A stretch of 64,000 nt of DNA, from positions 744,001 through 808,000 of the forward strand of contig NZ_LT906443.1 in NCBI RefSeq assembly GCF_900187135.1, read 5' to 3'. Numbering within the stretch: the stretch's first letter is position 1; each line of letters starts with the position of its first letter. The translations under genes and the position numbers were made by a program. Below the pieces are notes generated by a model that made no database searches, was not told the DNA's origin, and saw only the letters and a list, made by a program, of their open reading frames with translations. Of the stretch, positions 784 through 62,746 are shown one piece after another. The DNA is from Corynebacterium ulcerans. Its GTDB lineage: Bacteria; Actinomycetota; Actinomycetes; Mycobacteriales; Mycobacteriaceae.

Positions 784-1803
784 TCAAGCTGTGGGCAGTT
801 TCCCCACGGAGTGAGCGTGCTCGATCATCTGATCAATCGCCTTATTCACTATCGCAGGCTGCTCCAAAATGATCATGTGCCCGGTATCAGGCGCGACTTG
901 CAGGCCAGCATCTGGCCACAGACTGACAATCCTTTGCGCCTGGCTGAGCGGGGTGACCGAATCTTTTTCTCCTACGATAACTACGCCTTCTATCCCGCTA
1001 AGGAGTCTCGCCCCTTCCACTTCTTCATGCTCTTGCAAATCATCGAGGAACCCCACGAATGTGGAAAGAGGGGTCTCGTTAATCAGCTGAGCATGAAAAT
1101 CGATGACGCTAGGAGGCATAGGAGTCTGGAATACCGTTACTGCCAGCGTGGGAGCCACCAAAGCGGCTATAGATTCTCTGAGCGTGGCGGTCTCTGCCGG
1201 AGACGCTTCCACTGCATTACGGATTTTCTCTGCCACAGGTAGGGCTAAGACCTGAGGCACTCCTTGGCTGGCAAAGGAGTCTACGGCTGTGGCTACCAAA
1301 ACTAACCCTGCAGTATGCGTCCGAAATTCGGGATAGCGACGCAAGAAATTAATCGCCACCATTCCACCGAGTGAGTGCCCCACTATAACAAGGGGACCAT
1401 TGGGCTTCACCGCTTCTAAAACCCGCGCTACATCATCAGCAGCGCCGTCGAGAGTGCAATCTTCTACGGAGTATTCCCCCGTGCTCCCGTGTCCACGTAA
1501 GTCCATGAGAACGCAGCGGGCTTCATGCGCAACGTGAGCTACCTGTAGATGCCACGCTGAGGCCGCCAATGTAAAGCCATGGATAAAGACGACGGTAACG
1601 TCAGCATCTTCAGGCCCGTCTAGGTAATAACGGATTCTGCCGGTTGTGCGGGACTCGCTATAAAACCTTTCATGTACTGTGTTGTGTTTCTTTGCGTGGG
1701 CAAGAGCTTGTCGACGCCGGCCCTTGCGCGTCAATCGAGGCAGTCGCATGCGTTTGAGCCTACGCCTGCGTAAAGTCGGAATTGTTCTTAGCCCCTCCCT
1801 CAT
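784..1803 (-). CDS. Alpha/beta-fold hydrolase
   Basis: The protein has an alpha/beta-hydrolase fold: an HGF oxyanion motif near residue 75, the nucleophile elbow GHSLGG with Ser at about 144, and a late DTGHM motif that supplies the catalytic His. The N-terminus (about residues 1-45) is very basic and unlike the rest. The ATG at 1803 lies only 17 bp from the divergent acyl carrier protein start, which would leave almost no room for two promoters; the internal ATG at 1749 (MRLPRLTR) is a reasonable alternative. The substrate cannot be told. A lipid or ester substrate is suggested only by the neighbouring acyl carrier protein. One copy of the dispersed 10-mer TTCCCCACGG lies at the 3' end (800-809). 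Confidence 0.85.
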   Translation of the reverse strand: MREGLRTIPTLRRRRLKRMRLPRLTRKGRRRQALAHAKKHNTVHERFYSESRTTGRIRYYLDGPEDADVTVVFIHGFTLAASAWHLQVAHVAHEARCVLMDLRGHGSTGEYSVEDCTLDGAADDVARVLEAVKPNGPLVIVGHSLGGMVAINFLRRYPEFRTHTAGLVLVATAVDSFASQGVPQVLALPVAEKIRNAVEASPAETATLRESIAALVAPTLAVTVFQTPMPPSVIDFHAQLINETPLSTFVGFLDDLQEHEEVEGARLLSGIEGVVIVGEKDSVTPLSQAQRIVSLWPDAGLQVAPDTGHMIILEQPAIVNKAIDQMIEHAHSVGKLPTA

Positions 1804-1820
1804 CTCAAGGAGCTCTACCT

Positions 1821-2129
1821 GTGTCCTCGCTTCAAGACCAGCTTCTCAAGCTGCAAGACAGCACTTCCGATTCTTCTCAACCAGGTGTAGATGCTTCGAC
1901 CAGGGAAAAAGTCATCGCAGTACTCGCACTTTTAGGGGTAGAAAAAGAAAAGGCAGATCCGTCTTCTCGCCTCGATTCCCTCGGAATAACCTCTCTCGAC
2001 CGCATCGAACTTACTATTCGGGTAGAGGAACACTGTGGGTTCCGCACGACGGATACTGCGATTTTTGCGCTTGAAACGGTACAGGATCTCATCGATTATG
2101 CGGAACGCAAAGGAGAGCAACAGAAATGA
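1821..2129 (+). CDS. Acyl carrier protein
   Basis: A small acidic protein of about 102 residues with the phosphopantetheine attachment motif SLGITSLDRIEL; the Ser after Thr in that motif would carry the prosthetic group. Such proteins hold growing acyl chains as thioesters for fatty-acid or polyketide-type synthesis. I chose the GTG at 1821 because AAGGAG lies eight bases upstream (1807-1812); the longer in-frame ATG at 1782 falls inside the divergent hydrolase and has no such site. The stop overlaps the start of the following HAD hydrolase (ATGA), so the two are probably translationally coupled. Actinobacterial AcpM proteins look similar, but the partner enzyme is not in the window. Confidence 0.88.
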   Translation: MSSLQDQLLKLQDSTSDSSQPGVDASTREKVIAVLALLGVEKEKADPSSRLDSLGITSLDRIELTIRVEEHCGFRTTDTAIFALETVQDLIDYAERKGEQQK

Positions 2130-2947: not shown

Positions 2948-2948
2948 T

Positions 2949-4298: not shown

Positions 4299-4303
4299 AC
4301 GTC

Positions 4304-5581: not shown

Positions 5582-5587
5582 CAAGAT

Positions 5588-5738: not shown

Positions 5739-5868
5739 ATCTTCCCATTCCCACCGTTCCCCACGGGGATAGTTGGCGTTTACTCTCAGAGTTCTTAGGT
5801 AGGGTGGACACCAAGCATTACAGGTGATCAGTGTTCGCACTAAGACGAAGTGAGTAGGAAGAAAATCA

Positions 5869-8915: not shown

Positions 8916-10790
8916 TTATTCCACGGTCACTGACTTGGCCAGGTTGCGCGGCTGATCCACGTCAAAACCTTTTGCCGCGGCGACTGCGCAAGCAAAAATC
9001 TGCAGAGGCACCGTGGCTAGCAGTGGCTGCATCAGGGTCGGTGACTGAGGGATGCGGATGATGTGGTTGGCGTAGGCCTCCACGGCGGTATCCCCTTCCT
9101 CGGCGATGACAATTGTGATTGCACCGCGTGCGCGAATCTCTTGGATATTGGAAACGATCTTCGCATGCAGGGAGTCGCGTCCCCGTGGGGAAGGAACAAC
9201 CACAAAAACGGGCTGACCTTCCTCAATAAGCGCGATAGGACCATGTTTGAGCTCACCAGCAGCGAATCCCTCTGCGTGAAGGTATGCGAGTTCCTTCAGC
9301 TTGAGTGCGCCTTCCAACGCTACGGGGAAGCCCACATGGCGCCCAAGGAAGAGCACCGACTTCACATCTTTCAGGTCTTGTGCCAGGGCTTTCACATCGT
9401 CTTCCTTCCCCAGCACCTCCTCGACCTTCTCTGGAATTGCGCGCAGTTCAGCTACCACTGCGTTAACTTCATCCGCAAACATATTGCCCCGCAGCTGCGC
9501 TAGGTACAGCCCTAGGAGGTAGGTAGCGGTGATCTGAGCTAGGAAGGCCTTTGTGGAAGCCACTGCTATCTCGGGGCCCGCGTGAGTGTACAGCGAAGCG
9601 TCCGATTCCCGGGGGATGGATGAACCGTGGGTGTTACAGATCGCTATGACCTTGGCGCCTTGTTCCCGAGCATGGCGTACGGCCATGAGCGTATCCATTG
9701 TCTCACCAGACTGAGATAGCGCCACGACCAGTGTCTTTTCGTTGACAATCGGGTCCCGGTAGCGGAACTCATGGGCCAATTCCACCTCGGTCGGAATGCG
9801 GCACCAATGCTCGATTGCGTAGCGTGCCACGTGTCCCGCGTATGCGGCGGTGCCGCAGGCAATAACGATAATCTTGTCTACGCTGCGCAACAGCGACTCC
9901 TCGATGCGCACTTCGTCGAGGGTGAGCTTGCCGTTTTCGTCGAAACGCCCCATGAGGGTATCGCGGATAGCTGCCGGCTGCTCGTGAATCTCCTTCTCCA
10001 TGAAGAACTGATAGCCGCCTTTTTCCGCCGCTGCCGCATCCCACTCCACGGTAAATGGCTTGCCCTCTGCCGGGGTGCCACTGAAGTCAGTAATCGCGTA
10101 AGAGTTCGGCGTGATGGTTACAATCTGATCGTTGTCCATCTCCACGGCATTCTTGGTGTAGTCGATGAAACCAGAGACATCCGACCCCAAGAAGTTCTCA
10201 CCTTCGCCCAGGCCGATGACCAGCGGCGAGTTACGACGCGCAGCCACAATACGATCAGGGCTATCAGCGTGGATGGCCAAAAGCGTGAACGCGCCTTCCA
10301 GACGTGTACAGGTCAACTGCATTGCCCGTGTGAGGTCGCCCTGTGCATCGCCCGCCAGGATACTGCCCAACAACACTGCTGCTACTTCGGTGTCCGTATC
10401 CGAAACAAAGTTGTGACCTTGTGCTACGAGCTCGCTTTTCAGCTCAGCGAAATTCTCAATGATTCCGTTGTGAACTACGGCCAATCGACCGTTGTCCACC
10501 ACATGCGGGTGGGCGTTCGCGTCTGTTGGGCCACCGTGAGTCGCCCAACGAGTGTGTCCAATACCAAGCACGGAATCAGGCATTGGGCTCTTGTCCAGTT
10601 CCTGTTCCAGGGCCGAAACCTTGCCCGCTTTCTTGCGGAAGTTGATCTCCCCATTTGCAAGGACCGCTACTCCCGCAGAATCGTACCCACGATATTCGAG
10701 CCGCCGCATCCCTTCAAGAACCACTTCAAGAGCATAATATTCACGCCCAGACGCACTGGGAGTGCCAACAAATCCTACGATTCCACACAT
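8916..10790 (-). CDS. glmS: Glutamine-fructose-6-phosphate aminotransferase
   Basis: GlmS makes glucosamine-6-phosphate from fructose-6-phosphate and glutamine, the first step towards UDP-GlcNAc for cell wall. The start must be the ATG at 10790, because the mature enzyme needs Cys directly after the initiator Met (MCGIVGFVG). Seen in order: the class II glutamine amidotransferase domain with GIGHTRWATHG and GDLTRAMQ, then two SIS domains (VIACGTAAYAG, SQSGETMDT, STKAFLAQ, ELKHGPIALIEEGQPV) and the C-terminal PRNLAKSVTVE signature. One copy of the dispersed 10-mer (9183-9192) is read as PSPRG within the second SIS domain. No glmS ribozyme or other leader element was recognised in the 150 bp upstream. 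Confidence 0.97.
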   Translation of the reverse strand: MCGIVGFVGTPSASGREYYALEVVLEGMRRLEYRGYDSAGVAVLANGEINFRKKAGKVSALEQELDKSPMPDSVLGIGHTRWATHGGPTDANAHPHVVDNGRLAVVHNGIIENFAELKSELVAQGHNFVSDTDTEVAAVLLGSILAGDAQGDLTRAMQLTCTRLEGAFTLLAIHADSPDRIVAARRNSPLVIGLGEGENFLGSDVSGFIDYTKNAVEMDNDQIVTITPNSYAITDFSGTPAEGKPFTVEWDAAAAEKGGYQFFMEKEIHEQPAAIRDTLMGRFDENGKLTLDEVRIEESLLRSVDKIIVIACGTAAYAGHVARYAIEHWCRIPTEVELAHEFRYRDPIVNEKTLVVALSQSGETMDTLMAVRHAREQGAKVIAICNTHGSSIPRESDASLYTHAGPEIAVASTKAFLAQITATYLLGLYLAQLRGNMFADEVNAVVAELRAIPEKVEEVLGKEDDVKALAQDLKDVKSVLFLGRHVGFPVALEGALKLKELAYLHAEGFAAGELKHGPIALIEEGQPVFVVVPSPRGRDSLHAKIVSNIQEIRARGAITIVIAEEGDTAVEAYANHIIRIPQSPTLMQPLLATVPLQIFACAVAAAKGFDVDQPRNLAKSVTVE

Positions 10791-10940: not shown

Positions 10941-11477
10941 ATGCCTGCTTCTTCACCGTCCCCTAAAAAAGCTCTTCCCACCGCGATCGCAGGGGTGCTC
11001 ATCGCGATTGTTGCGGGGGCACTGGGATTAAATCTGTCCTCGCATGATTCCTCCGTGGGGAAAAACGACAGTAGTCGCACTCCAGTGTCCACGTCTGCTG
11101 CTTCTCAGGCTCAAGAACGCACAGCTGCTCCGGCTAAAAACACCTCTGCTAAAAACACCGTTGTGCCAGACTCTGGTCTGCGCTCTTGTACCGTGGACTC
11201 GCTCCCCAAAGAAGCCGAAGAAACCATCACCACAATTCTTTCGGGTGGTCCCTTCCCTTATCCAGATAATGACGGCGTGAGATTTGGCAACTATGAAGGT
11301 CTTCTCCCTCGCCAATCTCGTAACTATTACCGCGAATACACAGTGGACACGCCTGGGTTACGTCACCGTGGCGAGCGCCGCGTTATCACCGGCGGTGGTT
11401 CCCAACGCGATCCAGACACGTGGTACTACACCGACGATCACTACGAAAGCTTCTGTGAGATCCCTGATGCCGAATAA
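10941..11477 (+). CDS. Secreted guanyl-specific ribonuclease (RNase Sa/barnase superfamily)
   Basis: A 178-residue exported nuclease. Residues 1-35 are a signal peptide or anchor (KKALPTAIAGVLIAIVAGALGL), followed by a Ser/Thr/Ala-rich linker. From about residue 80 the mature domain matches the Streptomyces RNase Sa pattern: LPKEAEETI, GGPFPYPDNDGVRFGNYEGLLP, YYREYTVDTPGLRHRGERRVI and DHYESF. The Glu in REYTV, the two Arg in RGERR and the His in DHY correspond to the catalytic Glu, Arg, Arg and His of this family, so it should be active and cut RNA after G. Its 3' end overlaps the barstar-like gene by 11 bp, giving an RNase/inhibitor pair. Confidence 0.9.
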   Translation: MPASSPSPKKALPTAIAGVLIAIVAGALGLNLSSHDSSVGKNDSSRTPVSTSAASQAQERTAAPAKNTSAKNTVVPDSGLRSCTVDSLPKEAEETITTILSGGPFPYPDNDGVRFGNYEGLLPRQSRNYYREYTVDTPGLRHRGERRVITGGGSQRDPDTWYYTDDHYESFCEIPDAE

Positions 11478-16080: not shown

Positions 16081-16502
16081 CGCACCTCGCGTGGGGCGTC
16101 GATAAGCCTGCACGCGTAGCTTAAAAAGGCAAGGAATTCAGTAGGGAGCCGTTGTTCTACGGCAATCTGGCCGGTACCAGTACGCGAAAATGCGAGTGTC
16201 CCGATCGTCTCACCCGCACGGATTATCTTCCGATGAGTGCTTAGCGCTGACGACCGATCAAGACGATATAACGCTTCACCACAGTGTGCTTTCAGCCTGT
16301 GCACACTCAGTCCTGCGTTTGTAAGCATGTATCTTTGGCCAGACGACGACTCCCCGCGTACCACTATCCCCGTGGGGAATCTTCGCTCTATGCTCACCTG
16401 AATCTGGGAATGTGCAAGCACCACGCGATCGTGGCGTACATGCGCAAGCGCCTCCCCGGTGTCGTCGAAAAGAACATCGTTCTTCCATAACGCTTTGTTC
16501 AT
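16074..16502 (-). CDS. Protein of unknown function, paired with the next gene
   Basis: A 142-residue soluble protein that I do not recognise. It is beta-rich by appearance (VLFDDTGEALAHVRHDRVVLAHSQIQVSIERR). It lies 19 bp after the membrane protein at 16522 on the same strand. The two have a similar layout in their first 110 residues (short strands with alternating charged and hydrophobic residues), so they may be distant paralogues, one without the membrane anchor. The 10-mer at 16370-16379 is read as FPTG here. Confidence 0.6.
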   Translation of the reverse strand: MNKALWKNDVLFDDTGEALAHVRHDRVVLAHSQIQVSIERRFPTGIVVRGESSSGQRYMLTNAGLSVHRLKAHCGEALYRLDRSSALSTHRKIIRAGETIGTLAFSRTGTGQIAVEQRLPTEFLAFLSYACRLIDAPREVRS

Positions 16503-23634: not shown

Positions 23635-23731
23635 CTGTCTCCTTCTACGTGGGGAAATCCAAAGTTAATCTCTCCCCATAGTAAGCCATGGGGCAAGCGT
23701 TCTTACACTACGCGGCGTAATTCCCCACGGG

Positions 23732-37375: not shown

Positions 37376-37412
37376 TAAAGGCCCATTTCCCCACGGGGAA
37401 ATGGGCCTTTGC
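37376..37412 (+). terminator. malQ terminator containing the dispersed 10-mer as an inverted pair
   Basis: AAAGGCCCATTTCCCC-ACGGGGAAATGGGCCTTT, about 37377-37410, is an almost perfect palindrome whose centre is TTTCCCCACGGGGAAA. The 10-mer TTCCCCACGG (37387-37396) forms the loop side. A T run follows. Confidence 0.85.
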
Positions 37413-43533: not shown

Positions 43534-43536
43534 TTT

Positions 43537-49548: not shown

Positions 49549-50766
49549 TTGACACCTTCACCTTTTAGTTTCCAAGACATGAACGTCAAGGAATGCCTCG
49601 AGTTTTTAGCCGCAAACGGAGTTGCATTAGCTGAATATATCTTTTCGGTCTCCCAAAAACCTCGGGCAAAGGTGGAGCTTTCTGCGCTTTTTGGCATTGA
49701 TCCCACGACTATGGGCAGATACATCAAAACTGCAAAAGCTCTGTTTGGCCCCACGAGAGACAAAGCTATGCGAGAAGAAGCCCTGGCTATTGCTCGACAA
49801 GGAAATCTAGGGCTAGACACAATCGCACTGATCAACACAAAAGTCTCACGCCTACGCGACCCTGATAACCAAGAAGCGTTTCGAGTTGAGCTCCTATTAT
49901 TCGCGTGCAAACACCCGTTTACAGTCCTGAAGCAGCACGCCGACATTCGCCTCCAGGAAGAAAACAGCGCTTCTGCTTCACATTCCCACGCGCTGCGCTA
50001 CGCACGTTTCTCCCATGCCCCAGACGCCAACAATATGCGGTATTTATTCTTATCTCTCCCCGAAGAACTCATGACCGCAATCGAATCCCGCATGGTTGAC
50101 TACGCACGCCGTTTTAAAAGCACAACCGTATCAAGCCAACAAACACTCGCTGATGCTATCACTGGCACTTTGCTTCACGACGACTCCCGCTCCCCCGACG
50201 GCAACGCTCTTCGCGAAGGCCTTATCCTCTTGCCTGCGGACGGTTGGAAAAATAATGGCGGCAGCGAACTAGTCACCATTGACGGGGCCACAATCAAAGC
50301 CGCCGAACTTGCTAATCATCTTCTCGCTGATTTTGGCTATGCCGTGCTATACGACGAAAACGCCGAACCTGTTGACCTCTTTCGAACCCAACGCTTAGCA
50401 AACACAAAACAACGCATCATCCTTACCGCCGACCAGCTTCTTTGCACTGATCCTTCCTGCAGTCGTGCAGCTTTTCGAGCACAATGCCATCACATTGACG
50501 CATGGAAACACGGAGGAAACACAAACCTGGAAAATTTAGCCATGGTATGTGGTTCTCATAATGCGCAAAACGACGACGATCACATCCTCGGCAAGCATCG
50601 CAATGGACACTACGCAAAATGCCCCACGACCGGGCGTGTTGGCTGGCAACCACCCGACCCCGAGGCACCTCTGCAATTTAACCAGCATCCTTTAGCTAAC
50701 AAATCAGCCAGGATGTGGGCACTTCGCCACTTCTCCCGTGGGGAAATTACTCCCAGTTCTCCTTAG
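49549..50766 (+). CDS. HNH-nuclease-motif protein
   Basis: A 405-residue protein with a C-terminal HNH region: LLCTDPSCSRAAFRAQCHHIDAWKHGGNTNLENLAMVCGSHN, with paired cysteines, the HH/ID core and the final HN. The N-terminal 280 residues are helical and variable, as in the numerous DUF222-like HNH proteins of actinobacteria. Such proteins exist in many copies per genome and their role is unclear. Start is uncertain: TTG at 49549 or ATG at 49579 (MNVKECLEF). Its end overlaps the end of the BCCT gene by 20 bp, and a 10-mer copy is read as SRGE there. Confidence 0.82.
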   Translation: MTPSPFSFQDMNVKECLEFLAANGVALAEYIFSVSQKPRAKVELSALFGIDPTTMGRYIKTAKALFGPTRDKAMREEALAIARQGNLGLDTIALINTKVSRLRDPDNQEAFRVELLLFACKHPFTVLKQHADIRLQEENSASASHSHALRYARFSHAPDANNMRYLFLSLPEELMTAIESRMVDYARRFKSTTVSSQQTLADAITGTLLHDDSRSPDGNALREGLILLPADGWKNNGGSELVTIDGATIKAAELANHLLADFGYAVLYDENAEPVDLFRTQRLANTKQRIILTADQLLCTDPSCSRAAFRAQCHHIDAWKHGGNTNLENLAMVCGSHNAQNDDDHILGKHRNGHYAKCPTTGRVGWQPPDPEAPLQFNQHPLANKSARMWALRHFSRGEITPSSP

Positions 50767-52624: not shown

Positions 52625-53173
52625 CTAATTTCGTGGGGGATTTCGAACTTCATTTCCCCACGGGGGAAGCAGGCCGACTTTATCAACCACAACCCCATCA
52701 TTCCTCTGCCCCAGTACATCAGCTATTTCGTAGGGCCTCGGCGTCGCTCCTGCGGGAAATTCGACTGTGTAGAGTTTTTCGCTTCTTCTTTGTTGGATGG
52801 CATTGGTCGGCAGCATCGTAAGAAAGCTAGTTTTTGCATCACTCCAGATCCGGATATGGGCAAGATCCTCGAGGGGAAAGGTCGCCCCGGAATGGGTTAC
52901 GTGCACTTTGTCGCTGATCGTGAGAATGGGGCGGCGTCGTCGGGCAAAGAAGGCCCCGAGCGAAGCCAGAGCGCTGATAATCCCCACGGCAGGCGCAACG
53001 GCGGAGGCGGCGTAGAGCATTCGCATGGTTCCTGTTGCGTTGTGATGCGCGACGAGGAGCACACCAAGAAGGCTCGTCATGAGAATCACAAAAAGCACGC
53101 ACGTGATCGTGGCCTTTGATTGGGCCAAAGCGCGGTAGGAAGTTCTCACTGTTATCGACATCAAGCACATCAT
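52625..53173 (-). CDS. Membrane protein with PH-like soluble domain, function unknown
   Basis: A 182-residue protein with two predicted membrane helices (ATITCVLFVILMTSLLGVLLVAHH and MLYAASAVAPAVGIISALASLGAFF), then a soluble domain (RPILTISDKVHVTHSGATFPLEDLAHIRIW) that recalls bacterial PH-like domains. ATGs at 53173, 53170 and 53161 are alternative starts. A 10-mer copy at its end is read as PPWG. It lies 15 bp after the AEC carrier gene on the same strand and 45 bp before the BCCT gene, so it may share their transcript. Confidence 0.65.
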   Translation of the reverse strand: MMCLMSITVRTSYRALAQSKATITCVLFVILMTSLLGVLLVAHHNATGTMRMLYAASAVAPAVGIISALASLGAFFARRRRPILTISDKVHVTHSGATFPLEDLAHIRIWSDAKTSFLTMLPTNAIQQRRSEKLYTVEFPAGATPRPYEIADVLGQRNDGVVVDKVGLLPPWGNEVRNPPRN

Positions 53174-53188: not shown

Positions 53189-54109
53189 TTATCCCAACAA
53201 AGACATGATTGCGATGAGCACCGGCAAAGAGACGAGAGTGCTTATAACGCCGCTGTTTCTGGCCAAGCTTTCCGACGTTCCATGCCTCAACGCATACGCA
53301 TACACATTTTGTGCGGTAGGCAGCGCACCCAGGAACGTCGCGACAAGCAGGGCCCGGCCCGTCAGCCCCATCGCCGAAGCAATTCCCCACGCCAATGTGG
53401 GGTGCGCAAAGTTCTTAAGCCCGCACGCCACGATGGTGTCCATCACCTTTGTTTCCCCACGGGGGAAAGTGGTGGATAGGGACATCCCAAAGAGGATCAA
53501 CGCCAGCGGCACGGAGGATTCGCCAAGCAGATGGATTGGTTGGGCAAGGACTGCGGGCATGTGCAGTCCGGCGGCTGCAATCGTTAGGCCGGTTATTGAT
53601 GCAAGGAACATTGTGTTGCACAGCGGCGCCCGTACGAGATTCCCCAGGAGTTTGGTCTCCTTTTTGTTGTGGAGAAAATCTAGCCAGGTCATGGCTAGCG
53701 GCGCGTAGAAAGCAATTTGGAAGAGCATGAGCGGGATGACGAGGGTGGCGTCGTCAAGCACATAGGTAGCGATGGGGATTCCAAGATTGCCGCCATTTGC
53801 ATAGCTTGCCGCCAGTGCCCCGATTATGGCGTCGTCGATGCGGCGGCGCAGAAGCACAGTGCTGATGCTGAAGGAGAGAAACGCAATGCCCGTAGCGCTG
53901 ACGCACACGACTATAAAGCTGCTCGACACAATCGCGGAGAGCTCGGAGTGCATGATTTTGTCGAACAATAGCGCTGGGGTGGCAACAACGTAGACAAAGT
54001 TCCCTAGCGAAGCGGCGGCGCCTTTGCCTAATACGTTTTTCTTGCCGAGGACAGCGCCTAAACCGATCACAAGGAAAATCACAAAGAACCCACGGAAAAT
54101 GCTCTCCAT
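53189..54109 (-). CDS. AEC-family transporter (auxin-efflux-carrier type)
   Basis: A 306-residue membrane protein with ten predicted helices in two inverted halves. Family marks are FVYVVATPALLFDKI, ANGGNLGIPIATYVL and the second-half LGESSVPLALILFGMSL and ATFLGALPTAQNVYAYALRHG. Bacterial members export or import small organic acids such as malonate or malate; the substrate here is not known. Start ATG at 54109; the open frame further upstream overlaps the divergent peptide-binding gene. A 10-mer copy is read as TFPRGE in the loop before the last helices. Confidence 0.88.
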   Translation of the reverse strand: MESIFRGFFVIFLVIGLGAVLGKKNVLGKGAAASLGNFVYVVATPALLFDKIMHSELSAIVSSSFIVVCVSATGIAFLSFSISTVLLRRRIDDAIIGALAASYANGGNLGIPIATYVLDDATLVIPLMLFQIAFYAPLAMTWLDFLHNKKETKLLGNLVRAPLCNTMFLASITGLTIAAAGLHMPAVLAQPIHLLGESSVPLALILFGMSLSTTFPRGETKVMDTIVACGLKNFAHPTLAWGIASAMGLTGRALLVATFLGALPTAQNVYAYALRHGTSESLARNSGVISTLVSLPVLIAIMSLLG

Positions 54110-54199
54110 AATTGTAGATTGTGCTCCATTTTCCCCACGGGAGGCACCCCCGCTAAAAACAAGTTTGCCCTCATGCATTCACGGGTTAGTCTGCTTGTC

Positions 54200-55741
54200 A
54201 TGTTCTCTTTCCCCCGGCGCGCGGTCGCGATGATGACTTTGGCGATCTTTGGTTTGAGTGCGTGCTCTGCTGGTTCGGCGGCGTCGCAAAATTCGTTGGT
54301 GCATGAGTCCAACGATCACAGTGTGACTCTTGGGTTGACGGCACCCCCCAGCTCCCTCGATTTCACTACTACCTCTGGCGCTGCCATTCCTCAGGCACTG
54401 ATGGGCAATGTGTATGAGGGTCTGGTTCGGGTTAATCAACGTGGTGAGGTGGAGCCGTTGCTTGCGTCATCATGGGAGGTGTCGGAGGACGGCACACAGT
54501 ATGTGTTTCACCTTCGCGAGGGCGTTCGCTTCTCCAACGGCGACGCTTTCACAGCGGACACTGCAAAGTTTTCCATCGATCGAGTGCTTTCCGACGCCTG
54601 GACTAATGGCTTGAAAGCCCAAATGTCCAAGGTGACCAACACCCGGGTTATCGATACCCACACCCTCGAAGTCACGCTCGCGCATCGCTCAAACACCTGG
54701 TTGTGGTCGATGGGCACGTTGATTGGTGCGATGATGTCGCCACGGGGGGTGTCGGACTTGGCCACTAAGCCGGTGGGCACCGGACCTTATGAGGTGGATA
54801 ACTGGGCGGTGGGAACGTCGCTATCCTTCACCTCCCGTGGGGAATATTGGGGTGAATCTCCCAAGAATAAGCGGGCTGTGCTGCGCTATTTCGCGGATGC
54901 GATTTCTCTGACTAATGCTGTGCGTTCCGGAGACGTTGACGCTGTTATCGGTTTGCAGTCTCCTGAGCTCTTGGAGTCCATACAGCGCGATGGTGACCTC
55001 AATGTCAACGTGGGCACGACCAACGGTGAGGTGCTGCTCACGATGAATCATGCGCGGGCGCCGTTCAATGATCTTCGCGTCCGGCAGGCGGTGATGTTTG
55101 GCGTCGATAGGCAGGCAATCATTGATACCACGTGGGAGGGCTACGGGATTGACACCGGGGGCGCGCCGGTGCCGCCGACGGATCCGTGGTATCAGAAGAC
55201 GGAGCAGTATCCGTTTGATCCTGACCGCGCGCGCCAGTTAATGAATGAGTCCGGGGCGACGGGGACCAAAATAACTATTTCGGTGCCGTCGTTACCCTAT
55301 GCTGCCACGGCTTCTGAGATTTTGTACTCGCAGCTTCGAGACATCGGCTTCGACGTGAGCATCGAATCCACCGAATTTCCGTCCGTGTGGTTGGCCAAAG
55401 TCTATAAGGGCCATGACTACGACATGTCGGTGATTGCCCACACCGAGGCCCGCGATATTCCCAATATTTTTGCTAACCCAAAGTATTACCTGGGTTACGA
55501 CGACAAAAAAGTTCAAGAGCTCATCGCCCAAGCGGACACCGTGAATGAAGCCGACTATGTCCCCACGATGAAAAAGGCAGTCACGCGGATCTTGGATCAG
55601 GCCGCGGCCGATAACTTGTTCAATCTTCCCAACATTGTGGTGACGGCGAAGAACGTCAGCGGAGTTCCCGTCAACGCTGTGGGCGACGGCCTCTTGCTGG
55701 CTGCTATCGCGAAAGAAGAACCAAGGAAGGTAACGCACTAG
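54200..55741 (+). CDS. dppA: Peptide ABC transporter substrate-binding lipoprotein (family 5)
   Basis: Solute-binding protein of a peptide/nickel-type importer. Signal peptide: MFSFPRRAVAMMTLAIFGLSAC, lipidated at the Cys; ATG at 54173 would give a longer n-region, and neither start has a clear ribosome binding site. The mature protein has the family-5 hallmark LLASSWEVSEDGTQYVFHLREGVRFSNGDAFTADTAKFSIDR and NDLRVRQAVMFGVDRQAI. It is the first gene of a complete importer with overlapping junctions. 10-mer copies at 54130 (leader) and 54835 (read as SRGEYW). The symbol is by class; the peptide specificity is unknown. Confidence 0.9.
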   Translation: MFSFPRRAVAMMTLAIFGLSACSAGSAASQNSLVHESNDHSVTLGLTAPPSSLDFTTTSGAAIPQALMGNVYEGLVRVNQRGEVEPLLASSWEVSEDGTQYVFHLREGVRFSNGDAFTADTAKFSIDRVLSDAWTNGLKAQMSKVTNTRVIDTHTLEVTLAHRSNTWLWSMGTLIGAMMSPRGVSDLATKPVGTGPYEVDNWAVGTSLSFTSRGEYWGESPKNKRAVLRYFADAISLTNAVRSGDVDAVIGLQSPELLESIQRDGDLNVNVGTTNGEVLLTMNHARAPFNDLRVRQAVMFGVDRQAIIDTTWEGYGIDTGGAPVPPTDPWYQKTEQYPFDPDRARQLMNESGATGTKITISVPSLPYAATASEILYSQLRDIGFDVSIESTEFPSVWLAKVYKGHDYDMSVIAHTEARDIPNIFANPKYYLGYDDKKVQELIAQADTVNEADYVPTMKKAVTRILDQAAADNLFNLPNIVVTAKNVSGVPVNAVGDGLLLAAIAKEEPRKVTH

Positions 55742-56691
55742 TGATTGCGGCGAAACTTGCACGAGGCGCAGCTAAGTACGCGCTTACGTTGTTTATTGCC
55801 AGCGTGGTCATTTTTGTCGCGCTTCGGATTGTTCCAGGGAACCCGGCAGAGGTGGCGCTCGGGGTGACTGCGACGCCGGAGGCCGTCGCAAAGCTAAGTG
55901 CGACGATGGGGATCGATAAGCCGCTGTGGGAGCAGTATGTGTCGTGGATCGGTGGCCTCCTCCGTGGGGAATTTGGGACTTCGTTGACCAGCTCGACGGA
56001 TATTTCGCCCATCGTCGCGGATCGGCTTCAGGTCAGTCTGATTCTCGTTGTTCTATCGATGCTGTTCGCCCTTATGCTCGCTGTCCCTTTGGGGTTGTGG
56101 GCGGCTAGGCGCTCAAGCCATATCGACGGCATCCTTATCTCCGCGCTCAGCCAGGTTGGAATTGCGGTTCCGAGTTTCCTTGCTGCGATACTGTTCATTT
56201 CTTTTTTTGCAGTTCGCTTGCGTTGGTTGCCCACCAACGGTTGGTCGGTGCCCGATGAGGATTTCAGCGGTTTTCTGGTGCGCCTTGTGCTGCCGGTGGT
56301 GTCCCTTGGGATTGTTCAGGCTGCGATTATGACTCGATATGTGCGGGCAGCTGTCATGGATGTGATGCGCGAAGATTTCATGCGCACCGCACGCGCTATT
56401 GGGTTGAGCTCATGGCAGGCCTTGCGCAGCCACGGATTACGCAATGCGGCCCTGCCAGTTCTGACAGTAACCGGTTTGCAGCTCACGTCCTTGTTGGTGG
56501 GTGCGGTTGTTATTGAACGGGTTTTTGTTATTCTGGGTCTGGGCAGCCTGCTGCTCACCGCTGTAACAAACCGCGATTTGCCCACGGTGCAGACGATCGT
56601 GATGATCCTCGTTGTCCTTGCCATCGTGGTCAACGCGATCGTGGATATGGCTTATGTTGTGGTGGACCCGCGCACTCGAAGGGAGGCCTAG
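55741..56691 (+). CDS. dppB: Peptide ABC transporter permease (DppB type)
   Basis: A 316-residue permease with six predicted helices and the inner-membrane permease motif EDFMRTARAIGLSSWQALRSHGLRNAALPVLT that contacts the ATPase. Its opening (LTLFIASVVIFVALRIVPGNPAEVALG) is typical for DppB/OppB. The GTG start shares a G with the stop of the preceding gene (TAGTG). The C-terminal ERVFVILGLGSLLLTAVTNRDLPTVQTIVMILV is also typical. One 10-mer copy at 55962 is read as LRGEFG, a place where DppB proteins commonly have a similar RGDFG, so here the word fits existing sequence. Confidence 0.93.
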   Translation: MIAAKLARGAAKYALTLFIASVVIFVALRIVPGNPAEVALGVTATPEAVAKLSATMGIDKPLWEQYVSWIGGLLRGEFGTSLTSSTDISPIVADRLQVSLILVVLSMLFALMLAVPLGLWAARRSSHIDGILISALSQVGIAVPSFLAAILFISFFAVRLRWLPTNGWSVPDEDFSGFLVRLVLPVVSLGIVQAAIMTRYVRAAVMDVMREDFMRTARAIGLSSWQALRSHGLRNAALPVLTVTGLQLTSLLVGAVVIERVFVILGLGSLLLTAVTNRDLPTVQTIVMILVVLAIVVNAIVDMAYVVVDPRTRREA

Positions 56692-56695: not shown

Positions 56696-57547
56696 ATGCG
56701 TAGTAGTCGTTTTTCGCTCGGCGGCAAGATCGGGCTGGGGATCGTTATCGTCGTTGCTGTTCTTGCGTTGGTTTCCTTAGTGTGGACGCCTTATGATCCG
56801 CTCCGGGTTATGCCGGGGTCGCGGTTGGAGGGGCCGTCGATAAGCCATCTTTTGGGCACGGATCGCTATGGCAGGGATGTGTTGTCGCAGGTGATGGTGG
56901 GATCTCGTATCACGCTCCTCGTGGGGATTGTCGCGGTGTCTGTGGCAGCGCTCGTGGGGGTGCCGCTCGGTGTGTGGGCAGGTATGAGGCGCGGCTGGAT
57001 AGATTCGGTGATCATGCGCGGCGCAGATCTGCTGCTTGCGTTTCCAGGTCTGCTTCTGGCGATTGTGGCCACCGCGATGTTTTCGGCCACCACGTTGACC
57101 GCGATGATGGCTATTGGAGTGGCCAATATTCCGGCTTTTGCTCGTGTGGCGCGCGCGGCGACGATGCAGGTGATGGCGCAGGATTATGTTGCTGCAGCCC
57201 GCGACGCCTCCCGTGGGGAATTGAGTATTGCAGTGCGCCACGTGATCCCCAACATTTTGAGTGTGGTGGTGGTGCAGGCGTCGGTGGCTTTTGCCCTCGC
57301 CATTCTTGCCGAAGCCGGCCTGAGCTTCCTAGGCCTTGGCACTCCGCCGCCGGATCCCAGCTGGGGCCGAATGCTGCAGTCTGCGCAATCGTCGCTGGCC
57401 ACCGCGCCGCTGCTGGCAGTATGGCCGGGCCTTGCTATCGCGCTGACCGTTTTGGGCTTTAATTTGCTTGGCGACGGCCTCCGCGATCTCACCGACCCCC
57501 GTTCCACTCGCCGTACCGCAGGTTTTTCTAAGGAGTCTTCATCATGA
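56696..57547 (+). CDS. dppC: Peptide ABC transporter permease (DppC type)
   Basis: A 283-residue second permease of the importer. Start at 56696 has GGAGG nine bases upstream, at the end of dppB. GTDRYGRDVLSQVMVGSRITLLVG, DYVAAARDASRGELSIAVRHVIPN (the ATPase-contact loop) and LSFLGLGTPPPDPSWGRML are hallmarks of DppC/OppC. The 10-mer at 57211 supplies ASRGEL in the contact loop, where the family normally has a variable LGAS. One GTCGATAAGC copy lies at 56836. Confidence 0.93.
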   Translation: MRSSRFSLGGKIGLGIVIVVAVLALVSLVWTPYDPLRVMPGSRLEGPSISHLLGTDRYGRDVLSQVMVGSRITLLVGIVAVSVAALVGVPLGVWAGMRRGWIDSVIMRGADLLLAFPGLLLAIVATAMFSATTLTAMMAIGVANIPAFARVARAATMQVMAQDYVAAARDASRGELSIAVRHVIPNILSVVVVQASVAFALAILAEAGLSFLGLGTPPPDPSWGRMLQSAQSSLATAPLLAVWPGLAIALTVLGFNLLGDGLRDLTDPRSTRRTAGFSKESSS

Positions 57548-58977
57548 CGCTTCTCCAAGTCCGCAATCTCACTGCTGCGGGAATCCTGAAGGATGTGGCT
57601 CTGGCAGTCGACCATGGCGAGCGCGTCGGGCTGATCGGAGAATCCGGCTCCGGCAAAACGATGACTGCACTGTCCATCATGCGGCTCATTAACGCGTCAG
57701 GTTCCATTCAACTCGACGGACAAGAACTCACGGCGCTGTCGGAGAAAGCGATGTGCCGTATCCGGGGTCGCAAAATTGCCATGGTGTTCCAGGAACCCAT
57801 GACGGCTCTCGACCCGCTCATGCGAGTGGATAAGCAGATCGCTCAGGTGCTCAAAGTTCATTCTGTTTCCCCACGGGGGAAGGTTACGGAACTGCTGTCG
57901 AGCGTGGAACTCGACCCTGCACTCGGCAAGCGTTTTCCCCACGAGCTCTCGGGCGGGCAGCGCCAGCGCGTATTGATCGCCATGGCCCTGGCCCATGACC
58001 CCGACGTATTGATGTGCGATGAGCCAACAACTGCGTTAGACGTGACTTCTCAAAAGGCGATCGTCGACCTAATCTTGCGCCTGGTCGCCGAGCGCGGAAC
58101 TGGCCTGCTGTTTATCACTCATGATCTGGGGCTGGTGGCCGCCACGTGCCAACGCATTCTGGTGATGCAAGGCGGCGCAGTCATCGAGGAAGGAACCGTA
58201 GAGCAGGTTCTCCACTCCCCTGCGCACTCTTATACGCGCATGCTTATCGACGCCTCCCAGCTTCCTCCAGCCCGCCCCGCCATGATTACTGATGAGTCCA
58301 TGGTGCGGGCGCGGGGCGTCGAGAAGCATTATCGCCATCACAAAGCAGTCGATGGCATTGATCTCTACGTCTCCCGTGGGGAAAGAGTCGGCATCGTGGG
58401 CGGCTCGGGCTCGGGAAAGACAACGCTGCTGAAGATGATCGCGGGACTCATACGCCCCACGTCAGGCAGCATCTCTGTCTCCGGCACCAAAAAGATGGTC
58501 TTTCAAGACCCCATGCGGTCTCTGGACCCCCGCATGACCATCCGCGAGATCGTCGCCGAGCCGCTCCCGCGTGCCAGCGACGAGCGCATCGTTGAGGTTT
58601 TAGAAGAAGTCGGCCTCAGTGGGGAGATTCTCGACCGTTTTCCCCACGAGTTCTCGGGCGGGCAGCGCCAGCGCATTTCTATAGCTCGCGCGCTGATTGC
58701 GTCGCCGGATATTCTGCTTGCCGACGAACCCGTCTCAGCCCTCGACGTCTCAGTAAGAAAGAAGGTCCTCGCCCTCATAGACCGGCTGGTTCACGAGCGC
58801 CATCTCACCCTCTTGTTTGTCTCCCACGACCTCAACGTGATCCGCTCCGTGTGCTCGTCTGTGGTTGTGATGCACGAAGGTCGTATCGTGGAGGCCGGCC
58901 CTGTGGACGAGGTGTTTGCCAACCCCAAGGCCGAATACACCAAGCAACTCTTGGCGGCGATCCCCCACTTAGGATGA
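57544..58977 (+). CDS. dppD: Peptide ABC transporter, fused ATP-binding protein (DppD-DppF)
   Basis: A 477-residue fusion of two ATPase domains. The first (about 1-235) has [47 protein letters not shown] and ITHDLG. The second (about 255-477) has [48 protein letters not shown] and VSHDLN. Such fusions replace separate DppD and DppF. It overlaps dppC by four bases (ATGA). Two 10-mer copies are read as SVSPRGKV (57867) and SRGERVG (58374), with partial copies FPHE at 57936 and 58640 just before each signature motif, i.e. at equivalent places of both halves. Confidence 0.94.
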
Positions 58978-59132: not shown

Positions 59133-60395
59133 TTAGTGATCCGCAACCTTGCTTTTGAGAAGCGCCAGGATTTCCTCGCCGGCCCAGTGGATGCCGTCGT
59201 GCTGATACTGGTTGGTGATGTGGAGGCGGGCGTCGCAAAGCTTATCTGCGGTGTGCAGCGAATACTCATAAGGCACAAACGCATCATCGACGTACACGCA
59301 CGCGGCTGCGACGGGGCTCTGCGCCAGCGCTTCCGGGCGATACGGTGACGCATCCCACCGACGCATGGCCAAGCCCTGCGCAGCCTGAGCAAACGGAACC
59401 AGGGCCGGATCCTCCTCAAAATGCCACGGATAAATGTGCTCGCCTGTGAGATAAAACTTCTCATTGGACCGTGGATCCGCATCCTGCGCAAACCCCTCTA
59501 TTTCCCCACGGAGGCGGTGGGCGGACCACGCCGTCTGCGGACCGCCAATCCCGCCATAAATTGACTCGTGGATCGCGGCGTAGAGCGGGGCACTCGCAAA
59601 ACTTACTTTTGCACCGATTTCTGCCAGGACATCAGTCTTAAGTTTCTTCTCTCCGTTTCTCTGAAACGGACTCTCAAGGAGATACGCCAAAGAATAGAAC
59701 CCCGCCGACCGGCCGAGGTCAATGCCAATGGTGCGGAATCTTCTTGAGCTAAGCCGCTCCCCCGTGGGGAGTTTCTCGTCGGAGTTATCAAGGTGATGGC
59801 AGATTTCCCTGATGCGCGCTTCGGCCCATGGGAATTGGCTATAGAATTCCTCGCTGCGGCGGGCGATGGCTGCGTAGGTGGCGCGATACACATCGTCCAC
59901 GTGGGCTTCAAGGGCTGGAAGACCACCGGTGATATATGATTCGGCAACCGATTCTGGGTAAAGGGAAAGATAAGAAGTAATGCAGAATCCGCCGAAGCTT
60001 TGCCCATACAGAGTCCATGCGGAGATTCCCAAAGCTTTACGCAATGCCTCGGCGTCATGGACGATGAATTCTTGGCGCAAAAGGTGCAGTTTGTCTGCGT
60101 CCGTGCCAAGGGTGTCGCAATCGATGCGATGCGAACGACCGGTTCCGCGTTGATCTAAAAGAACCACGCGATGTGTCTTCAACGCTTCCTTAATCACGCC
60201 GCTGATCGAAATCGGGCGTGGGGCCGGAAAACCGGGACCTCCTTGGAGATACAAAAAGGCCGGATAGTGTTCTCCTCCAGCGGGCACCAACTCGCGAGCA
60301 AAAAGCTCAAACGTTCCCAGTTCCGGATTCTGCGGATCCCAAGGGACCTCCAGGGTGTGTTCATAAACTGTGCATCCAAGGTAACGAGTCTTCAT
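59133..60395 (-). CDS. Proline iminopeptidase-like alpha/beta hydrolase (S33)
   Basis: A 420-residue peptidase-like protein that would remove N-terminal Pro from peptides. Marks are PAFLYLQGGPGFPAPRP (oxyanion region), VVLLDQRGTGRSHRID, and WTLYGQSFGGFCITSYLSLYPE (nucleophile Ser near residue 155). DAFVPYEYSLHTADKL and the late NQYQHDGIH supply Asp and His. ATG at 60395 starts the family match; the frame further upstream is Arg/Ala-rich shadow. Next to a peptide importer it could process imported peptides. Dispersed words at 59502 and a near copy at 59762. Confidence 0.9.
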   Translation of the reverse strand: MKTRYLGCTVYEHTLEVPWDPQNPELGTFELFARELVPAGGEHYPAFLYLQGGPGFPAPRPISISGVIKEALKTHRVVLLDQRGTGRSHRIDCDTLGTDADKLHLLRQEFIVHDAEALRKALGISAWTLYGQSFGGFCITSYLSLYPESVAESYITGGLPALEAHVDDVYRATYAAIARRSEEFYSQFPWAEARIREICHHLDNSDEKLPTGERLSSRRFRTIGIDLGRSAGFYSLAYLLESPFQRNGEKKLKTDVLAEIGAKVSFASAPLYAAIHESIYGGIGGPQTAWSAHRLRGEIEGFAQDADPRSNEKFYLTGEHIYPWHFEEDPALVPFAQAAQGLAMRRWDASPYRPEALAQSPVAAACVYVDDAFVPYEYSLHTADKLCDARLHITNQYQHDGIHWAGEEILALLKSKVADH

Positions 60396-60519: not shown

Positions 60520-61218
60520 ATGGAAAACGTGGAAGCTCTCCGCCTCGCCCACGAGGCCGTCCTGGAAAGAATCGCCAATTCTGCCGAGCGCGCCGGCCGC
60601 GACGCCGCAGAGGTCCGTCTTATCGCGGTGACCAAGACTCACCCGGTGGAAACCGTACGAGATGCAGTGGCTGCCGGGATGACGGTGCTGGGAGAAAATA
60701 GGCCGCAGGAGCTTTCGGCTAAGGCCAGCGAGGTGTCGGGAGTGACGTGGTGCGCGATTGGCCGGCTGCAGCGCAATAAGGCCAAGGAAGTGGCGGCGTG
60801 GGCGCAGGAGTTCCATGCGTTGGATTCGATACGTCTGGCGGAGGCGTTGCAGCGAAGGCTAGAGTCCGCAGACCGCACGTTAGAAGTATTTGTACAGGTC
60901 AATACCTCCGGGGAGGTACAGAAAGGCGGCATTGCTCCGGCCGAGGCTGCGGAGTTTTTAGGGCAGCTAGCCGACTATGACCGCCTCCACGTACGCGGGC
61001 TGATGACGATGGCTCAGAATTCCCCCGAGGAAGCCATTGTGAGGTCGTCATTTGTGCAGCTGCGTGAGCTTCGCGATACCCTCCAGCCGGACTTTCCCAC
61101 CGCAACCGAATTATCGATGGGCATGTCCGGCGACTTTGAATGGGCAATCGAGGAGGGCGCAACGAGCGTGCGGGTAGGCAGCGCGCTGTTTGGCCCCCGT
61201 GGGGAATATCTGGGTTAG
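60520..61218 (+). CDS. PLP homeostasis protein (YggS/PROSC family)
   Basis: A 232-residue TIM-barrel protein that binds pyridoxal phosphate and regulates its supply. The PLP lysine lies in LIAVTKTHPVETV, and GENRPQELSAKA, HVRGLMTMA and LSMGMSGDFEWAIEEGATSVRVGSALFG are family motifs. The last bases include a 10-mer copy read as GPRGEYLG, replacing the usual GxR ending (FGPR is the expected family end), so the word extends the C-terminus. It ends 4 bp into the convergent thiosulfate permease gene. Confidence 0.94.
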   Translation: MENVEALRLAHEAVLERIANSAERAGRDAAEVRLIAVTKTHPVETVRDAVAAGMTVLGENRPQELSAKASEVSGVTWCAIGRLQRNKAKEVAAWAQEFHALDSIRLAEALQRRLESADRTLEVFVQVNTSGEVQKGGIAPAEAAEFLGQLADYDRLHVRGLMTMAQNSPEEAIVRSSFVQLRELRDTLQPDFPTATELSMGMSGDFEWAIEEGATSVRVGSALFGPRGEYLG

Positions 61219-62537
61219 GTGCGCAGGAGGGCGCCGTGTTTCACCACGGTGATCTGCCATCCGGCGCTGCCGACCTCATGGAAATCGGTGACGGCGTGGC
61301 CGTCGTCGGCGGCCCAGCGTGGAATGGTTTCGGTGGCTTGGGTGCAGTCGAAGTCAATGACGAGCGCTTCCCCGTCGCTGAGCTGGTTGATGGCGGTTTT
61401 TGCGTCGATAAGCGGGAACGGGCACACCGCGCCCAGCGTGTCTATCACGTATGTGCCCGGTGCGACTGCGCGCAATCCTTGCTTATCGACGCCCACCTTC
61501 ACCCCCGCCGGCGCCACCTCAAAGGCGCTGTTCACACGAGTTTTCTGCGTAGGCTTGAGCCATATCTTCGCAGCAGCGGCAACACCTAGACCGATGAACA
61601 GCAGCGCTACCCACCCCTGATAACTAAACAGACTGGTCTGTACCATACCATTGCCCACGGTGCATCCGCCGGCAAGCGCCGCGCCTATGCCCATGAGCGT
61701 GCCACCTGCGATCGAGCGTATCGAGGTTGTCGCATCCGGCACCCGCACCCGAAACTCACCCGTGGCCTTTGCTGAGGCAAACGACCCTACAAGGATTCCC
61801 ACAACAAGCAGCGTCCCCCAATTCAGGAATTTTGCGTCGCCCGTGGTGAGCCAGCTGGTCAAGTGTGCTGTTGGGGTGGTGATGCCGAGGCCGTCGTTAC
61901 GCCCAGTAACAGCCGACAGCGGCCATGCAATCACCCCGAGAATCCCCACGAGGAGACCAGCCGTGTTCAGACTCAGCGGGCGCTTCCATCCAGTGCGCCC
62001 CAACGTGGCCACGTTCGCCCCGTCTTTGCTGCGGTAATACCACACCGAATATGCCGTAAGCAGCGAAAGCCCAATCGCGAACCACCACGGGGAGAGCCCA
62101 AACGTATCAGGGATGGTGGTTGCGTTTATGGTAAATCCTTTGAGCCAGGCCGCTCCCCCGTGGAGAATTCCGGTCTTCATCGCAGCAGCCGATATGCCGT
62201 AGAAGAGCAGCGCAAACCAGGATCCAACCAATCCTTCTCCTGAGCGATACCACGTCCCGGAGGCACAACCACCGGCCAACACGATGCCGATACCGAAAAT
62301 AAAGCCACCTATAACAACGGCAAGAGGCGCGAACGCATCCACTGGAGTGGTAATAACACCGAGCGTGCGTAGCCCCGATAAGCCCACCGCGTGCACGGAA
62401 ATCACAATAAGAAGCGCAACAAAGCCACGCCACGTTTTTAAAAGATAAATATCTCTGAGCATTCCAGTGACACAGAAGCGACCACGCTGCAAAACAACGC
62501 CGAGCACTGCGCCAAGGAGAAGACCTGTTGCAATCAT
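61215..62537 (-). CDS. Thiosulfate permease TsuA (YeeE/YedE) fused to a TusA domain
   Basis: A 440-residue fusion. About residues 1-345 form a YeeE/YedE membrane domain with nine or so helices and the conserved cysteines in LAGGCASGTWYRSGEG and LAGGCTVGNGM, as well as one in LQRGRFCVTG. After a linker, residues 365-440 form a TusA-like sulfur-carrier domain with the active-site Cys in GAVCPFPLIDA. The fusion suggests that imported thiosulfate sulfur is passed straight to the carrier. Start ATG at 62537 has AAAGGA 11 bases upstream. GTCGATAAGC copies at 61404 and 61481 lie in opposite orientation. Confidence 0.92.
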   Translation of the reverse strand: MIATGLLLGAVLGVVLQRGRFCVTGMLRDIYLLKTWRGFVALLIVISVHAVGLSGLRTLGVITTPVDAFAPLAVVIGGFIFGIGIVLAGGCASGTWYRSGEGLVGSWFALLFYGISAAAMKTGILHGGAAWLKGFTINATTIPDTFGLSPWWFAIGLSLLTAYSVWYYRSKDGANVATLGRTGWKRPLSLNTAGLLVGILGVIAWPLSAVTGRNDGLGITTPTAHLTSWLTTGDAKFLNWGTLLVVGILVGSFASAKATGEFRVRVPDATTSIRSIAGGTLMGIGAALAGGCTVGNGMVQTSLFSYQGWVALLFIGLGVAAAAKIWLKPTQKTRVNSAFEVAPAGVKVGVDKQGLRAVAPGTYVIDTLGAVCPFPLIDAKTAINQLSDGEALVIDFDCTQATETIPRWAADDGHAVTDFHEVGSAGWQITVVKHGALLRT

Positions 62538-62746
62538 GAGGGGATATTCCTTTGGTCTGGGTTGCGTACCCCACACACGCTAGACCTATCCGTCTAGAAC
62601 TACAAGGATTTTAAAGACAATTCTGTCTATTTTGAATAAATAGGGATTTGCTGCGATTTTTTAAAATTCAGCTTTACCCCCGTGGGGAAACTGCGCAGCG
62701 TTCTCCTCCCCTTTGCCGAGTTCCATCCTCTTCCCCTCACCTGTTT

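Follow-up and report, generated by a model that had tools for sequence, protein, structure and literature searches.

We analysed a 64-kb stretch of the Corynebacterium ulcerans chromosome (positions 744,001 to 808,000 of the 2,453,761-bp sequence NZ_LT906443.1; hereafter the window, in the genome labelled G000) in which a 10-bp word, CCGTGGGGAA, is strongly over-represented. This word is probably the recognition (docking) site of a predicted nuclease with a predicted helix-turn-helix (HTH) and an HNH motif, which is encoded on the forward strand at 49549-50766 (protein P0001, 405 aa). It is likely that the nuclease itself binds the word, presumably through its N-terminal HTH. The copies are clustered around the nuclease gene, comparable clusters of other words recur around other members of the family, two of the words are each restricted to a few of 201 genomes, and the copies are strongly maintained between species. 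We conclude that they are kept by selection on DNA linked to the nuclease gene. Nuclease and word form one unit, and many other family members have a word and an array of their own. In the following, G numbers designate the genomes compared and L numbers the stretches (loci) that were read.

Distribution of the word around the nuclease gene

The window contains 35 exact copies of CCGTGGGGAA, 18 on the forward strand and 17 on the reverse strand, exactly as counted in the original prediction. That prediction had put the chance expectation at about 0.12 copies; dinucleotide shuffles of the window gave a mean of 0.13 (maximum 1), and an order-3 Markov model gave 0.35. The many near copies were also borne out, since 70 copies are found when one mismatch is allowed, against 4.55 expected. 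The reported gap between 23.7 and 31.4 kb (23.73-31.42 kb) has no exact copy, yet four one-mismatch copies lie within it. The flanks of the window copies show that the word is the core of a longer site, about YYYCCGTGGGGAAWY, in which the three preceding bases are mostly C or T, and A/T then C/T follow.

The copies lie both in and between genes, as had been noted. Coding sequence (88.8% of the window by long open reading frame (ORF) calls) holds 29 of them, and the other six are intergenic or at gene boundaries. All six combinations of frame and strand are represented among the coding copies, the commonest being the same-strand frame xxC CGT GGG GAA (12 of 29). An origin in one common codon pair, which the prediction had named as a possible refutation, is thereby ruled out. 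Hence, the word cannot be put down to a codon pair or to a promoter motif. A pattern resembling dif has no match in the window, and an Rfam search returned two tRNAs and nothing else.

On the forward strand, exact copies occur at 9183-9192, 11053-11062, 13344-13353, 16370-16379, 32920-32929, 39347-39356, 40550-40559, 41192-41201, 48245-48254, 48514-48523, 49219-49228, 50736-50745, 54835-54844, 55962-55971, 57211-57220, 58374-58383, 61197-61206 and 62680-62689, the last in the window. On the reverse strand, they occur at 800-809 (the first), 5757-5766, 22089-22098, 23721-23730, 31421-31430, 35008-35017, 37387-37396, 38953-38962, 41063-41072, 41668-41677, 46206-46215, 46598-46607, 52654-52663, 53453-53462, 54131-54140, 57867-57876 and 59502-59511. 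Some have a particular setting. The copy at 37387 is the centre of a long near-perfect inverted repeat, those at 41192 and 41668 are each paired, in inverted orientation, with a near copy at a distance of 22 bp, the one at 49219 is 320-350 bp upstream of the nuclease gene and the one at 50736 is within its 3' end.

We then place these copies on the whole chromosome, which carries 83 (46 on the forward and 37 on the reverse strand). The absence of strand bias claimed for the window thus extends to the chromosome. Within 110 kb of position 794 kb, i.e. about 9% of the chromosome, there are 54 of the 83 copies, and 29 lie elsewhere. The density falls with distance from the nuclease gene, from about 1.0 per kb at 0-10 kb to 0.6 at 10-20 kb, 0.2 at 20-40 kb, 0.17 at 40-60 kb and 0.1 at 60-80 kb, similarly on the left and on the right. 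In bins of 0-2.5, 2.5-5, 5-10, 10-20, 20-40, 40-60, 60-80 and 80-100 kb, we counted 3, 2, 4, 6, 5, 3, 1 and 2 copies to the left and 2, 3, 5, 6, 4, 4, 3 and 0 to the right, and the median offset of the copies from the gene is 1.5 kb. The uneven density reported for the window (12 copies before 38 kb and 23 after) is correct, but it represents one flank of this peak.

The position of the peak and its rarity elsewhere bear on the role first proposed for the word. The dnaA gene lies at 1.484 Mb, some 0.69 Mb from the peak at 0.79 Mb, and the GC skew, as sampled, reverses near 1.48 Mb and again at 0.20-0.26 Mb. Hence, the peak is in the middle of a replichore, at neither the origin nor the terminus. 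The proposed comparison of copy numbers in related species covered 201 sampled genomes of the genus. Four stand out (84 copies in G168, 83 in G000, 70 in G043 and 27 in G109), while the other 197 have 0 to 23. With most copies in one peak and so few in 197 genomes, a DNA-uptake-like or general chromosome word is not supported. A dispersed uptake, Chi, KOPS (FtsK orienting polar sequence) or replication-terminus word would account for a short exact word that is over-represented on both strands. We nevertheless regard it as very unlikely, given the concentration in about 9% of the genome, the distance of the peak from dnaA and from the 0.20-0.26 Mb skew change, the lack of strand bias and the use of other words by other species. 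What stands is a real word at the level of DNA that is unbiased by strand, independent of codons and strongly maintained; a genome-wide role is not supported.

A second word, GCTTNNCGACG, is truly genome-wide. It has 45 copies in the window (e.g. at 4547, 17426 and 18556) and 296 in 644 kb sampled from G000 (L002-L034), 149 on one strand and 147 on the other, against a mean of 5.8 and a maximum of 16 for scrambled controls. Samples from nine other Corynebacterium genomes gave 31-85 copies per 100 kb, whereas those from G082, G138 and G146 (20-80 kb each) gave 0-2. One sense frame (x-Leu-x-Asp) accounts for 200 of 341 copies, and the remainder are in other frames, on the other strand or intergenic. 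This word behaves far more like an uptake-type word than CCGTGGGGAA does. The open-literature matches listed for GCTTNNCGACG, and likewise those for CCGTGGGGAA, are unrelated by title.

The ORF at 49549-50766 is the centre of the word density in G000. A methionine conserved in the alignment (Met11) suggests that translation truly starts at 49579. The protein matches the Pfam HNH family PF01844 (E 4.8e-5, 23.9 bits for a cut-off of 21.4), and some other family members score just below this cut-off. In the HNH motif (50443-50571), residues C299, C304, H314, H315, C334, H337 and N341 are invariant in 26 aligned homologues (alignment A1, without L112 and L114, which contain stops). An AlphaFold2 model built from these 26 sequences (mean predicted local distance difference test score, pLDDT, 82.6; predicted template modelling score 0.52) has an all-helical N-terminal part with helices at residues 40-48 and 52-66, a block with pLDDT 93-96. 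From these helices and the sequence, we read residues 40-66 (49666-49746, forward strand) as a predicted HTH.

The gene is under ordinary constraint, with a ratio of nonsynonymous to synonymous divergence (dN/dS) of 0.062 relative to G043, and a 91%-identical protein in the databases is named from C. pseudotuberculosis. Homologues (E ≤ 1e-15) occur in 155 of the 201 genus genomes, often several per genome. Among 150 sampled genomes of the order, seven match, including G000, and the other six do so over the C-terminal part only; full-length relatives are confined to Corynebacterium in the samples searched. The plasmids and phages searched gave no full-length homologue and three partial plasmid matches. 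Boxes of the SOS (LexA) type are not above background upstream of the homologues.

Words around other members of the family

We surveyed 79 loci, namely stretches of 20 kb around 77 homologues (two of them shorter, at contig ends) plus the clusters of G000 and G109. They were compared with 35 control loci, of which 24 are in G000 and the remaining 11 in eight other genomes. The statistic was the best 9-mer of each locus, with copies less than 200 bp apart counted once. At all loci, we filtered out 9-mers containing TCGA, CGACG, CGTCG, TCGTAA or TTACGA, which removes GCTTNNCGACG and the like. Two clusters of known kinds of site, L014 (parS-like) and L015 (DnaA-box-like), were dropped from the controls, as were L026-L032, which lie inside the array. 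The same statistic had found the 10 parS-like sites GTTTCACGT of L014 and the DnaA-box-like sites near dnaA in L015, and these clusters are an unplanned positive control of the method.

The best control reached a z-score of 7.9, which 35 of the 79 homologue loci exceed, and 29 of them reach at least 9.3. The two sets differ (Mann-Whitney p 1.2e-8), a generous value as orthologous loci are counted apart. The word of one strong locus, L114, is a low-complexity palindrome. By our grouping, the other 28 share 13 words: TTCCCCACGG in G000 and G109; TTCTGCACA in G082; TCCTAACTT in G085, G007 and G187, another homologue of which has CTTCAGGAA; ACTCCCGGA in G056, G148, G096, G068 and G034; CTCTCCTAG at the second homologue of G000, G043 and G168; CTAATCTGG and CCCTCCGAG in G130 and G026; CCCTTGAAG in G080; CCAATAAGA in G161 and G094; TATTGGGGA in G159 and G047; CCTCATTGG in G146; and GGGGAAACC in G178. 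Orthologues share their word, and where one genome has two clear arrays their words differ. For example, the second homologue of G000, at 2,367 kb (L085, 2,357,501-2,377,500), has its own word, the same in G043 and G168, and 17 of the 29 copies of its form CTCTCCTAGS lie between 2,309 and 2,403 kb.

Within 10 kb of the gene, the copies at the 28 strong loci are closer than expected, with a mean distance ratio of 0.38 against 0.5 for a uniform spread (20 of 28 below 0.5, p 1e-4). The width of the arrays varies: it is narrow in G082, where the word is no longer the leading one in the neighbouring 20-kb stretches, and spans tens of kb in G187, G007 and G000. In L097 and L102, the copies often combine into inverted repeats that have a fixed 16-bp spacing and leave a loop of about 5 bp. 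Two of the words were checked further. CTCCTAACTT has 25-31 copies in G007, G085 and G187, where its source loci are orthologous, and 0-4 in the other 198 genomes. ACTCCCGGAA surrounds the homologues of G056 and G096, and also an already listed homologue in G068, whose locus had not been read when the word was searched for; 10 of 13 copies there lie within about 4 kb of this homologue.

The genome G109 separates the word from its neighbourhood. Its stretch (65% GC) shows no similarity to the G000 region in blastn at E 1e-10, yet it has a dense cluster of CCGTGGGGAA at 1,247-1,258 kb. When the ORFs of at least 100 aa from 80 kb of G109 were compared with the 308-kb G000 region, three had a match at E ≤ 1e-15; of these, one alone lies inside the cluster, the homologue of the window nuclease (33% identity, E 1e-58). 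The genes around it are unrelated to those of G000. A second homologue in G109 has a similar word, TTCCGCACG (z 8.2).

More generally, word similarity is higher between families that are closest to each other in protein sequence (nearest-neighbour tests, p 0.0006-0.023), a relation confined to close range. The word changes with the branch of the protein, the two co-occur and the nearest families have similar words; the simplest account is therefore that the protein recognizes the word. Covariation of the HTH with the word was considered as a further link and rejected: some pairs look suggestive by eye, the whole-matrix test failed, close-range tests were mixed and the HTH was not singled out.

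The word AAGGGGTGCC, used as a backward control, is enriched in G063, G064, G081 and G124 and is also frequent, on one strand, in G127. It forms inverted pairs about 45 bp apart that are clustered in G081 (contig C1, 110-315 kb) and G064 (contig C2, 444-615 kb). The sole HNH match of G081 is on another contig and that of G064 is about 190 kb away, and we therefore treat AAGGGGTGCC as something else.

Maintenance of the copies and explanations of the array

The gene and the words occupy the same place in G000, G043 and G168. Orthologous DNA is 85% identical to G000 in G043 and 90% in G168, and the synonymous divergence between G000 and G043 is 0.58-0.86 in seven genes. Of the aligned word copies of G000, 41 of 49 remain intact in G043 and 47 of 51 in G168; for control 10-mers, obtained by shifting the word positions nearby by multiples of 3, the proportions are 23.5% and 45.1%. 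Conservation between species spans word positions -7 to +10. This speaks against a small mobile repeat inserted many times near one place, of the repetitive extragenic palindromic (REP) or miniature inverted-repeat transposable element (MITE) kind. Such a repeat would explain the clustering and the hairpins formed by some copies of other members' words, but identity ends at about 18 bp with unrelated flanks, and, of the 12 copies altered in G043 or G168, by our reading nine differ by substitution rather than by an empty site and three by indels. We give this explanation very little credence.

Two features of the window stand out in the same comparisons. A 515-aa protein without Pfam match (41986-44214), beside a DUF3558 protein, is fast-evolving; its dN/dS of 0.174 and its 76.7% amino-acid identity to G043 are the extremes of the seven genes compared. 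At about 62,830-62,860, the relatives have extra DNA: about 2.1 kb in G168 and an unaligned gap of about 1.3 kb in G043, against 0.3 kb in G000.

Dozens of sites are kept on the nuclease's own chromosome, which makes routine cutting unlikely and favours docking over cutting. Binding to chromosomal words would then be non-destructive, and the array would keep a resident and potentially harmful nuclease near the place where it is encoded; we put the chances of this step at a little under even. The words would be selected wherever the nuclease gene is present. A site that is of use only to cells carrying the nuclease gains most from being inherited along with it, so that selected sites should become sparser with distance in both directions. 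If some members of a recombining population lack the gene, closely linked words would meet it most reliably, which would produce the symmetric decay.

The main rival to docking is biased recombination, and in both cases the functional steps are ones that we infer. The nuclease might nick or cut at words, or opposite them in heteroduplex, favouring DNA with words and gene in recombination after transfer, so that the words are a selfish mark of the gene's flanks. The symmetric decay over tens of kb could be that of a recombination tract, homologues are found in unrelated neighbourhoods and in several copies per genome, and words differ between species. But if words were cut in the conventional way and repaired from a partner without them, they would be lost, whereas they are maintained; moreover, gene and words sit at the same place in G000, G043 and G168, the protein is under ordinary purifying selection and full-length homologues are missing from the plasmids and phages searched. 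We consider this drive possible, though unlikely. These rival functional explanations overlap with docking, and the probabilities given to them need not sum to one.

The array might also serve the host, with the protein acting as a DNA-binding organizer or regulator whose HNH fold is now structural, and the words shaping the fold or the expression of the region. Purifying selection on both gene and words is consistent with this, as are the presence of words in and between ordinary metabolic genes and the fixed spacing of some inverted pairs (16 bp in L097, 22 bp twice in the window). However, only six of 35 sites are intergenic or at boundaries, making promoter control unlikely for most, the HNH residues remain invariant and the genes around the nuclease are unrelated in G109. 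We find such a role improbable. Of the roles suggested in the original prediction, one in recombination or local chromosome organization may hold, but the evidence favours a more specific reading, the recognition sites of the nuclease at the centre of the peak.

A third use of the nuclease would be defence: it would attack incoming DNA, and the words would label or protect the cell's own DNA, or hold the enzyme in an inactive state until it is required. The intact nuclease residues and the several variable homologues per genome suit this idea. On the other hand, a PADLOC scan of five family members gave no match except a weak one (E 0.015), no methylase was found among 20 proteins scanned in 37.8-64 kb, and the array covers only about 9% of the chromosome. 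Defence in this form seems quite unlikely. A doubtful extension of docking would combine these elements in a toxin-antidote-like supergene made of DNA sites. The array in the flanking 10-100 kb would be the antidote, or safe harbour, that keeps the nuclease harmless, and the nuclease would be freed when the chromosome is broken, degraded or replaced, as by phage attack or word-less incoming DNA. Such supergenes would constitute a class of chromosomal unit whose reading code, for one enzyme, is written into dozens of flanking genes.

Several observations weigh against recognition and docking by the nuclease. The 29 copies of G000 outside the peak exceed the total in any of the 197 other genomes. 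In the survey, 50 of the 79 homologue loci have no clear word, including many high-GC relatives that have none; G000 itself supplied 24 of the 35 controls, some of them in the tails of arrays; and broad arrays, that of G000 included, show no rise towards the gene inside 10 kb. Similarity of words and of HTH is uncorrelated over 18 word families (Mantel r 0.07, p 0.25), some tests of word similarity in close pairs are not significant (p 0.05-0.20), and at close range the rest of the protein predicts the words no worse than the HTH does. Foldseek gave no match of the model at E ≤ 0.001 and only a weak similarity, to the HNH domain of EcoKMcrA. Docking alone would work at distant sites, so that the decay needs the linkage argument or a preference in cis. 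Finally, in G168 (L050-L051 and L125), the nuclease gene is interrupted in the assembly (two frames) and the word array is kept, with two words lost against three in G000. Depending on the age of the break, which may be recent or an assembly error, this result is neutral or mildly unfavourable. We also sought relatives without the nuclease gene, and the best match of the neighbouring gene outside G000 was only 60% identical.

If recognition by the nuclease is correct, an HNH family of no known role would gain a testable partner. For every member that has an array, the DNA site can be predicted from genome sequence alone, which makes binding and cutting directly testable. The decay with distance points to selection on tens of short sites, mostly in unrelated genes, for the benefit of one linked gene. 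We know of no description of such a selection pressure on bacterial chromosomes. Among the open papers listed for these topics, judged by title and start of abstract, none describes word arrays around nuclease genes.

Comparison with known systems

The uptake sequences of Neisseriaceae and Pasteurellaceae (DNA uptake sequences and uptake signal sequences) are short exact words on both strands, in and between genes, with species dialects. The present words resemble them in all these respects, including species-specific variants, but they form a local array at one gene (54 of 83 copies within 110 kb of it, rather than genome-wide dispersal), G000 has two of them, and they are linked to a nuclease rather than to an uptake receptor. 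Chi, KOPS and architecture imparting sequences are biased by strand along the replichore, whereas CCGTGGGGAA has strand counts of 18/17 in the window and 46/37 in the genome, in a local peak. The architecture imparting sequences of C. ulcerans are described as G-rich, skewed to the leading strand and chromosome-wide (PMC3164646). They share with CCGTGGGGAA the character of short G-rich words, but the latter is local and unskewed; that paper has no match for HNH or endonuclease. Repeats of the REP or MITE type are long units inserted as blocks, whereas conservation here covers about 18 bp and changes mainly by substitution.

Homing enzymes have one or few target sites, which are absent from the allele that carries the gene. 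The window nuclease is like free-standing HNH homing endonucleases in its gene type and in being a presumed sequence-specific reader of DNA; unlike them, it has tens of words around its gene on its own chromosome (about 54), and these are kept, which departs from homing if the word is the cleavage target. Its HNH assignment rests on the PF01844 match and on C, H and N residues invariant in 26 proteins. As for restriction-modification, the partner methylase of such systems is missing among the 20 proteins scanned in 37.8-64 kb.

The 13E12 proteins have many paralogues. The nuclease family shares with these DUF222 HNH proteins of Actinobacteria the HNH end, a similar length and the many paralogues, but its DUF222 similarity is below the Pfam gathering score (14.1 bits for P0001 and 16.0 for the L096 member, against 24.4), and its full-length relatives were found only in Corynebacterium. 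REP13E12, HNH and DUF222 are listed among mycobacterial repetitive elements in a paper whose accessible part mentions no word arrays (PMC10589994).

The word shares with the parS/ParB and matS/MatP systems short sites clustered in one chromosomal region and present on both strands. Where matS sites cluster at the terminus, the peak of CCGTGGGGAA is at 0.79 Mb and the skew change at 0.20-0.26 Mb; and the parS-like sites of G000 form a separate cluster, of the TTTCACGTGA type, in L014 near dnaA, with CCGTGGGGAA elsewhere. In contrast to both systems, the words are at neither origin nor terminus, they differ between paralogues, and their presumed reader, a predicted nuclease, is encoded in the middle of the cluster.

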